Positions 62,454-64,000 of a stretch of DNA of 64,000 nucleotides are shown in pieces. The notes under the pieces are model-generated. The model searched no databases and was not told the DNA's origin. It saw only the letters and a list, made by a program, of their open reading frames with translations. The DNA is from Algibacter miyuki (GTDB taxonomy: Bacteria; Bacteroidota; Bacteroidia; Flavobacteriales; Flavobacteriaceae), in contig NZ_JAUFQP010000007.1 in NCBI RefSeq assembly GCF_030409805.1, forward strand, positions 620,001 through 684,000. Direction: 5' to 3'. The position numbers were made by a program, and so were the translations under genes. Position 1 is the stretch's first letter. Each line of letters begins with the position of its first letter.

Positions 62454-62918
62454 AATATTGTAAACAAATTATACCAAATATAATTAGAGTCTGTATTATA
62501 AATGGTATTACAAAGTAATGAAATATTTTAGACACCCTTTTTATTTACACATCAAATTTCTAAATAGTTTTTACCGCTTTACTTTATAAGCAAGAAACAG
62601 CGGTATGTAATTTATAGGTTTTATAACACCTCAAAACTTTTATTTCTGGTAACATACTTTGTTTCTAATAAAAATAAACCACTAATTAAAACCTTGTTGG
62701 CATTCTTTAAGCAAACAGCTCGGGTAATATTTACCCAATAATCTTCTTTTTTATACACTTTTTACACAATAGAAATGACTCGTTTATTTTACAAAAAATA
62801 TTAAACTACTATTTATCAATGTATTACATATTTTAATTGATTTCATTTTAGTTACGGCACATTTATTTCAATTAACTCATCGTAAAACAATTTACAATAA
62901 TTATAAAAGCATAAAATC
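62454..62918. other. AT-rich intergenic region upstream of the PepSY-like tandem array
   Basis: A 465 bp stretch between divergent genes. No supportable ORF, tRNA or hairpin terminator was seen. It must hold the promoter or promoters for the LysE gene and for the tandem secreted-protein genes, but no complete TTG/TAnnTTTG pair is evident. The long upstream region suggests regulated expression (inference). Confidence 0.5.
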
Positions 62919-63263
62919 ATGAAAAAATTAATTTTAACAATAGCGTTCGTAGCAGGTGGATTATCAACTTACGCTTTACAGATCAACCCAACTCAATCGG
63001 ATATCACAACTATTTCTATCACTGAAGAATTTAAAGAAGTTGCTTTAGAAAACGTACCAACTGCAGTTACTGAAGCAGTAGCTAGAAATTTTTCAACAGC
63101 AACCTTAAAAAAAGCTTATGTAAACAGTGTTGAGCAATACAAACTTGAACTTACTATCGACGGTACAGATAATGTTGTTTATGCCGATAAAGATGGTAAC
63201 TGGTTAAAATTGACAGATATCGGAACTCCAGCTCAAGATACAGAAGAAACCATTGAACAATAA
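62919..63263 (+). CDS. Small secreted PepSY-like protein, tandem copy 1
   Basis: A 114-residue protein with a classic signal peptide (about residues 1-20, MKKLILTIAFVAGG then cleavage near YA-LQ). The mature part has VPTAVTEAVARNF and, later, QYKLELTIDGTDNVVYADKDGNWLK. This is the alternating pattern of PepSY-like/DUF2874 domains (periplasmic, beta-lactamase-inhibitor-like fold). A short acidic tail ends it. Function is unknown. It is the most diverged of three copies, with about 16 differences from copy 2. Confidence 0.8.
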   Translation: MKKLILTIAFVAGGLSTYALQINPTQSDITTISITEEFKEVALENVPTAVTEAVARNFSTATLKKAYVNSVEQYKLELTIDGTDNVVYADKDGNWLKLTDIGTPAQDTEETIEQ

Positions 63264-63299
63264 TAATTATAAATAGTAACCCCTTAAAACAAAAACATC

Positions 63300-63644
63300 A
63301 TGAAAAAATTAATTTTAGCAGTAGCATTCGTAGCAGGTGGATTATCAACTTACGCTTTACAAATCAACCCAACTCAATCGGAAATCACAACCATTTCTAT
63401 CACTGAAGAATTTAAAGAAGTTGCTTTAGAAAACGTGCCAGCAGCAGTTACTGCAGCAGTAGCTAAAGATTTTTCAACAGCCACTTTAAACAAAGCTTAT
63501 GTAAACGGTAGCGAACAATATAAACTTGAAATCACTATCGACGGTACAGACAATGTTGTTTATGCTGATAAAGATGGTAACTGGTTAAAAGCATCAGACG
63601 TTGAAGCGCCAGCTCAAGATACAGAAGAAACCATTGAACAATAA
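63300..63644 (+). CDS. Small secreted PepSY-like protein, tandem copy 2
   Basis: A 114-residue protein with the same layout as copy 1: signal peptide, PepSY-like body and an acidic TEETIEQ tail. Amino-acid differences from copy 1 are scattered, with no change in length. It starts 36 bp after the stop of copy 1; the spacer has no terminator, so read-through co-expression is likely. Function is unknown. Confidence 0.8.
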   Translation: MKKLILAVAFVAGGLSTYALQINPTQSEITTISITEEFKEVALENVPAAVTAAVAKDFSTATLNKAYVNGSEQYKLEITIDGTDNVVYADKDGNWLKASDVEAPAQDTEETIEQ

Positions 63645-63681
63645 TAATTTATAAATAGTAACCCCTTAAAACAAAAATATC

Positions 63682-64000
63682 ATGAAAAAATTAATTTTAG
63701 CAGTAGCATTCGTAGCAGGTGGATTATCAACTTACGCTTTAGAAATCAACCCAACTCAATCGGAAATCACAACCATTTCTATCACTGAAGAATTTAAAGA
63801 AGTTGCTTTAGAAAACGTGCCAGCGGCAGTTACTGCAGCAGTAGCTAAAGATTTTTCAACAGCCACTTTAAACAAAGCTTATGTAAACGGTAGCGAACAA
63901 TATAAACTTGAAATCACTATCGACGGTACAGACAATGTTGTTTATGCGGATAAAGATGGTAACTGGTTAAAAGCATCAGACGTTGAAGCTCCAGCTCAAG
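63682..64000 (+). CDS. Small secreted PepSY-like protein, tandem copy 3 (3' partial)
   Basis: The first 106 codons are present and the gene runs off the end of the window. Over that length the protein differs from copy 2 at one residue (Gln to Glu at position 21, next to the predicted signal cleavage site). Its ATG at 63682 follows a duplicated spacer. More copies may lie beyond the window. Confidence 0.82.
   Translation, partial: MKKLILAVAFVAGGLSTYALEINPTQSEITTISITEEFKEVALENVPAAVTAAVAKDFSTATLNKAYVNGSEQYKLEITIDGTDNVVYADKDGNWLKASDVEAPAQ

Follow-up and report, generated by a model that had tools for sequence, protein, structure and literature searches.

The window that we analysed (64,000 nucleotides of Algibacter miyuki, G000:C3:620001-684000) ends inside a tandem array of genes for a small, apparently secreted protein, and the surrounding locus (L003, G000:C3:676000-694000) carries the rest of the array and the genes behind it (Table 1). 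A sequence-only reading of the window had reported at least three head-to-tail copies of a 114-residue protein; the array is real and holds four copies in all. Copies 1 and 2 and copies 2 and 3 follow each other head to tail with start-to-start distances of 381 and 382 bp. The near-identity of copies 2 and 3 and the figure of about 86% for copy 1 both hold, with measured protein identities of 99% (copy 2 against 3) and 86% (copy 1 against 2). In DNA, copies 2-4 are 97-99% identical to one another and 88-90% identical to copy 1. The spacers of 36, 37 and 38 nt are themselves copies of one another, so that their duplication was also read correctly. Across the rest of the source genome, the only matches other than the four copies had E values of 0.23 and 0.40.

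The concern that copy number might be an assembly artefact finds little support in the data. The array lies inside one contig of 1,139,518 bases (1.14 Mb; the genome comprises 4.94 Mb in 24 contigs), its copies differ, and four copies are likewise present in G680, a genome of the genus assembled as a single contig, which together make an artefact unlikely; further identical copies may have collapsed in assembly. The source assembly (G000) is rated 99.06% complete and 6.01% contaminated. Synonymous and non-synonymous differences number 3 and 1 between copies 2 and 3, 8 and 0 between copies 2 and 4, and 9 and 1 between copies 3 and 4 (C-terminal end excluded). Because these differences are almost all synonymous, copies 2-4 have been kept functional as silent changes accumulated.

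Table 1. Features of the array locus in window coordinates; positions past 64,000 are window-equivalent.
Feature	Position	Strand	Remarks
Enhancer-like direct repeat TATACA-N5-TACACA	62752..62768	+	proposed upstream activating sequence (UAS) of the adjacent NtrC-family response regulator
Sigma-54-like -24/-12 element CGGCACATTTATTTCA	62855..62870	+	conserved upstream of first copies
Array copy 1	62919-63263	+	114 aa, secreted PepSY-like protein (predicted)
Array copy 2	63300-63644	+	114 aa
Array copy 3	63682-64000, continuing beyond the window to 64026	+	
Array copy 4	64065-64397, past the window edge	+	110 aa, C-terminus shorter
Terminator-like hairpin	between copy 4 and the response regulator		read by eye
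NtrC-type sigma-54 response regulator (RR)	64512-65852	+	
Hybrid histidine kinase (HK)	65845-68268	-	807 residues; convergent with RR

The N-terminus of the array protein reads as a signal peptide ending in STYA and has no lipobox cysteine; we predict that the protein is secreted to the periplasm or the surface. Its description as PepSY-like finds support at the level of the family profile and the fold, whereas the window sequences alone match weakly. Copy 1 scores 14.9 bits against PF11396 (PepSY_like), below the curated cut-off of 28.3, copy 2 gave no PF11396 match, and NCBIfam gave none for a window copy. Searched singly against solved structures, a window protein returned unrelated matches only (E 0.35 or worse). 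Among 55 aligned family members, 31 match PF11396 at E<=0.01 (best 9.5e-6), and the profile search finds 3db7 as the best solved relative at E 6.6e-4. An AlphaFold2 model built on the alignment of 55 relatives has a core at residues 41-100, with block means of 89-93 pLDDT and the order strand, helix, three strands, flanked by a signal region and a C-terminal tail of low confidence. We took as the PepSY_like/DUF2874 fold a helix packed on a beta-sheet, as in 3u1w, 4hbr, 4k61 and 4fr9. The solved structures closest to the model are Bacteroides/Parabacteroides periplasmic proteins, DUF2874/BLIP-like, and the five best rows are all periplasmic proteins of the DUF2874 kind from these genera. The best VIA-align Z is 7.9 (3u1w, 69 residues, 3.1 A), in a range (under 8) that can reflect a common arrangement, and the best Foldseek E for the model is 0.012. 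With moderate confidence, then, we regard the array protein as a single-domain PepSY-like protein.

Conservation of the array, the regulator and the kinase

The clue to the role of the array lies past the window edge, in a two-component system that the sequence-only reading could not see. The regulator behind the array has the receiver, sigma-54 interaction (AAA+), lid and Fis-type HTH domains of an NtrC-type activator. Its loop, as read from the sequence, is GSFTGA, which we take to be the consensus of such activators, and rpoN is present in the source genome. In the kinase we found HisKA, HATPase and receiver domains; a Pfam Hpt domain was not found, and a C-terminal His is kept in 38 of 38 aligned kinases. 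A search for named domains in the sensor found none. By eye, the part outside the membrane would span about residues 30-275, and the first 310 residues of the Algibacter lectus orthologue are predicted to be all-helical (mean pLDDT 77, pTM 0.51); that model had no Foldseek match at E<=0.001, the McpS and TorS sensor domains being among the weak ones. Because the kinase gene is convergent, it does not belong to the array mRNA in the sense direction. Terminator-like hairpins between the last copy and the regulator were seen by eye in the loci inspected. Next to the kinase gene, on its upstream side, is a gene for a DUF2807 (head GIN domain) protein (L003:12430-13104). An upstream LysE-type gene was considered as a part of the module and rejected; it occurs in 2 of the 39 named loci (both Algibacter), besides L010 and L013.

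These 39 named loci were found through the array protein alone. The regulator lies downstream in all 39 and the kinase in 38, the exception being L062 (Tenacibaculum sp. 1_MG-2023), which keeps the array and the regulator and has no kinase. The place of the kinase is occupied there (L062:8099-11078) by three tandem lipoprotein-like frames with a signal ending in TACG, itself a young-looking array. The named loci closest to the source array are from Algibacter (Flavobacteriaceae). Among 299 Flavobacteriaceae genomes, searched for both the array protein (E<=0.001, 93 positive) and the regulator (E<=1e-120, 94 positive), 89 have both, four the array protein alone, five the regulator alone and 201 neither, counts that are not corrected for kinship; each search was positive in 72 genera. 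Only one of the pair is thus present in 9 of the 98 positive genomes. Among the 78 genomes with matches listed, 73 have the array directly upstream of the regulator and in the same orientation, at a median distance of 164 bp; in the other five, the protein match lies elsewhere than beside the regulator. A draw of 395 genomes of the phylum yielded 36 with matches, 25 in Flavobacteriaceae and 11, weaker (best 1.4e-16), in other families of the class. With array, regulator and kinase recurring together across one family of marine and soil bacteria, an envelope signalling system not yet characterised seems a better reading than an isolated gene duplication.

Copy number varies within this arrangement. 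Five genomes of the genus carry 4, 3, 2, 2 and 4 copies, G680 being one of those with four. Across 40 loci (L071 cut at a contig end; copy 2 of L074 a doubtful member on a very long branch) we counted 94 array frames, with at least two copies in 33 loci and a maximum of five; G532, from the phylum draw, has six matches in a row. In a protein tree with few columns and many weak forks, copies 2-4 of the source genome cluster together, and Arenibacter copies 1, 2 and 3 mostly cluster across species. Calling the array recent is apt for copies 2-4 in A. miyuki, but some paralogues, as in Arenibacter, are old. From the 33 multi-copy loci and the two patterns in the tree, we conclude that the locus normally holds more than one copy and that copies have turned over at some loci. 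The earlier suggestion of selection for high or variable output remains putative and fits the array. In the Arenibacter loci L065, L070, L072, L074 and L077, the copies stand about 200-480 bp apart, with terminator-like hairpins and promoter-like elements of their own, and do not look like one operon.

The region upstream of the first copy

The stretch of 465 bp ahead of copy 1 had been described as gene-free, which is correct at 62454-62918, but it is not featureless and looks like a regulatory region. A TGGCAY with a T-rich spacer precedes the first copies and is exact in 35 of 39 loci; it lies 56-78 bp before the called start, save in L076, where the start is called too far upstream. In A. 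miyuki we predict transcription to start at about 62881. Further upstream lies a TAYACA-N4/5-TAYACA repeat, scored with gaps of 3-5 allowed. It is perfect (12 of 12 letters) in 23 of the 39 loci, and 3 of 1950 shuffled controls reach that score. Measured from the TGGCAY, the perfect repeats fall at two distances roughly a helical turn apart, -92/-93 in 11 loci and -103 to -105 in the other 12. The other 16 loci have no perfect UAS, and six of them, Gelidibacter (4) and Wenyingzhuangia (2), reach only 9 of 12, the commonest shuffle score, so that the repeat there is diverged or absent.

In the source genome, the combined UAS + GGCAY pattern occurs once, at 62752, with none in the control. We also scanned 80 genomes, comprising 62 of the 89 double-positive ones, three more of the genus and 15 without the module. 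Of 43 matches, 22, each in a different genome, fall no more than 400 nt ahead of an array gene; the strict pattern is missing at the array from 43 of the 65 genomes that bear the module. The remaining 21 matches, two of them in genomes without the module, compare with nine in the control, and for this reason other targets of the regulator may exist. One possible second target is an off-array enhancer and GGCAY found in nearly the same form at G680:C1:3238844-3238944 and G681:C28:37598-37698. Another off-array match, TAYACAGGNGTTACACA, recurs in similar form in G072, G248, G014, G142, G196, G189, G297 and G250; it resembles a piece of conserved coding sequence and is probably unrelated to regulation.

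Later copies can carry such elements too. The 11 Arenibacter loci hold 23 later copies, of which 15 come with a separate TGG[CT]A[CT] element and upstream repeat, the latter relaxed to TAY[AC]CA and scored without a shuffle control, and 12 of these 15 repeats lie at -92 to -94; the site of copy 2 in L070 is oddly placed. The eight later copies without the elements are all copy 2, and, L074 left aside, the three of these loci that were inspected (L065, L072 and L077) read CGGTAT at that place. Two other candidates were set aside. A sigma-54-looking site spotted by eye at 62698, TGGCATTCTTTAAGCA, is not the one conserved in relatives and was dropped; and TTGGCAYRNNNNWTTKCW alone is uninformative, since a genome scan gave five sites against four in the control.

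Proposed mechanism and its alternatives

We consider it likely that the array is a target, and probably the main one, of the adjacent kinase and regulator, in a regulatory architecture with a secreted output. The architecture of the module is well supported by the array itself, synteny, co-occurrence, conserved cis elements and domain content, and because the strict pattern marks nothing but the array in the source genome, the pathway probably has the array as its main output. From this architecture we infer the following steps. The membrane-bound hybrid kinase, with its predicted all-helical outside sensor, would detect an envelope or outside signal, and phosphate would then flow from HisKA to the receiver, on to the conserved C-terminal His and finally to the NtrC-type regulator. 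Binding of the regulator to the TAYACA repeat about 100 bp upstream, together with sigma-54, would drive one mRNA carrying all array copies. The output would be a pulse of small single-domain PepSY-like proteins delivered to the periplasm or surface, presumably with a job in the periplasm. These proteins may in addition bind the sensor of the kinase and so dampen or adjust its activity, in the manner of DbfQ in Vibrio, an added feedback for which we rate the prospects no better than about even.

It is quite possible, if short of what we expect, that the array proteins are output and nothing else, that is, secreted effectors (metal, calcium or haem binding, protease inhibition, envelope protection) that never touch the kinase and whose copies raise the dose. 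The strict UAS + GGCAY pattern, found solely at the array in the source genome, favours such a role, for a loop of pure feedback would be purposeless. The closest folds include 3u1w and 3db7, titled calcium-binding or calcium-regulated, and the Bacteroides pair BT0922-BT0923 is listed as iron-regulated (PMC10434189). However, periplasmic partners encoded beside kinases can act on them, as described for two such systems (PMC12714742, PMC6075780), and retention of the array with the regulator fits either reading.

Conversely, the array could act purely as a negative feedback ligand that sets the gain of the kinase, with copy number as the tuning knob. The Vibrio system offers a precedent, in that phosphorylation of DbfR raises its own operon and DbfQ pushes DbfS toward phosphatase, and array copies vary from 1 to 5 as the regulator and the kinase stay single. 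We nevertheless find this unlikely; the strict pattern picks out no second target of the regulator in the source genome. What these two alternatives leave goes mainly to a combination of output and feedback. On a broader scale we can only speculate, with some doubt, that the family shares an undescribed phosphorelay whose single sigma-54 regulator acts on little else than an expandable array of secreted PepSY-like proteins, and that copy number (in Arenibacter, the number of promoter-gene units) evolves as a gain control for envelope signalling.

The choice of sigma factor is the weakest link of our regulatory reading. groES is reported as a sigma-54 target in Flavobacterium psychrophilum (PMC9723704) and is presumably under sigma-54 in relatives too. 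A sigma-54 promoter would show GG at -24 and GC at -12 with fixed spacing, together with an upstream enhancer. We took the TGGCAY closest to groES on its upstream side in the source genome and 24 relatives; position -13 is G in 25 of 25, whereas the array sites have T or C there in 38 of 38 and G in none. Both sets share the -24 half, which is part of the search pattern, and the T-rich spacer. Five members of the genus (L122-L124, L126, L127) have another element, TGGCATTTTTTATTTC, some 41 bp above the sigma-54-like site of groES; it resembles the array promoter. Because the -13 G is absent from all 38 array sites, use of sigma-54 in array transcription is probable rather than proven, and the promoter is best described as sigma-54-like, with a -12 half that may be degenerate or shifted. 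This departure from the groES sites would suit a sigma-A or ECF promoter, with the neighbouring regulator controlling something else. We judge that to be improbable, as enhancer-driven promoters are usually laid out in this way, with a TGGCAY, a T-rich spacer and a repeat at a set distance upstream, and the array and the regulator are retained and lost together. Finally, a neutral recent duplication or an assembly artefact of no special role, to which the 97-99% DNA identity of copies 2-4 might point, is hardly credible and already contradicted by arrays in many genera, four copies in a single-contig genome, the synonymous bias and the conserved upstream elements.

Comparison with known systems

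In ZraP with ZraSR and CpxP with CpxAR, a two-component system acts on the adjacent gene of a small periplasmic protein, and ZraR is NtrC-type. ZraP and CpxP differ from the array protein in fold and are single copy.

The array module also resembles DbfQRS of Vibrio cholerae and DbfQRS-like modules (Nguyen et al. 2025, PMC12714742), in which a small Sec-secreted PepSY protein is encoded beside a kinase and a response regulator. As described there, the PepSY protein DbfQ binds the kinase DbfS and shifts it to phosphatase, and phosphorylation of DbfR raises the module promoter; the PepSY gene of DbfQRS is thus under a regulator-activated promoter, which for the array module is a prediction. In Pseudomonas, two PepSY genes lie upstream, another likeness (PMC12714742). 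A DbfQRS-like module is marked by a gene for a small secreted protein of PepSY type no more than four genes away from a kinase or regulator; the array module has this arrangement, its PepSY label resting on the profile and fold evidence above. Unlike DbfQRS as described, it has an NtrC-type sigma-54 regulator, a hybrid kinase with a receiver and a conserved C-terminal His, a convergent kinase gene, and 1-5 copies set off from the regulator by a terminator-like hairpin, and it belongs to Flavobacteriaceae. DbfQRS-like modules are named from Proteobacteria, Terrabacteria and Fusobacteria in PMC12714742, and the word stem 'bacteroid' occurs 0 times in its main text. Within the accessible portions of the open-licence literature on PepSY with Flavobacteria/Flavobacteriaceae or with sigma-54, we found no description of the array with its regulator and kinase.

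QseE/QseG/QseF of Escherichia coli (PMC6075780) is alike in having a periplasmic partner encoded with a kinase and a sigma-54-dependent regulator. QseG differs from the array protein in being an outer-membrane lipoprotein that stimulates its kinase, and neither a PepSY fold nor tandem copies figure in the description given in PMC6075780. Together, the precedents of DbfQ with DbfS and of QseG with the sigma-54 regulator QseF suggest a feedback role of the array proteins on the kinase. In Bacteroides, BT0922-BT0923 (3db7 is BT0923) form a neighbouring PepSY_like pair that shares one table row with a PAS sensor kinase and is up about 2- to 5-fold under iron depletion (PMC10434189); on the strength of that response, iron or calcium would be reasonable candidate signals for the array module. 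The array profile matches 3db7 twice along its chain, whereas the array protein is one domain.

What we describe is, in our view, the PepSY-plus-two-component module in the form that it takes in Flavobacteriaceae, under sigma-54-type control and with an array that can expand. An anonymous duplicated protein thereby becomes one of three parts of a signalling module that can be tested. For this module, which 89 of the 299 sampled genomes of the family carry, we predict an enhancer, a promoter and a regulator. It would carry the idea of PepSY proteins paired with two-component systems over to Bacteroidota and to control by sigma-54, and its natural copy-number series, from one to five or six, lends itself to asking how a signalling circuit responds to tandem dosage.
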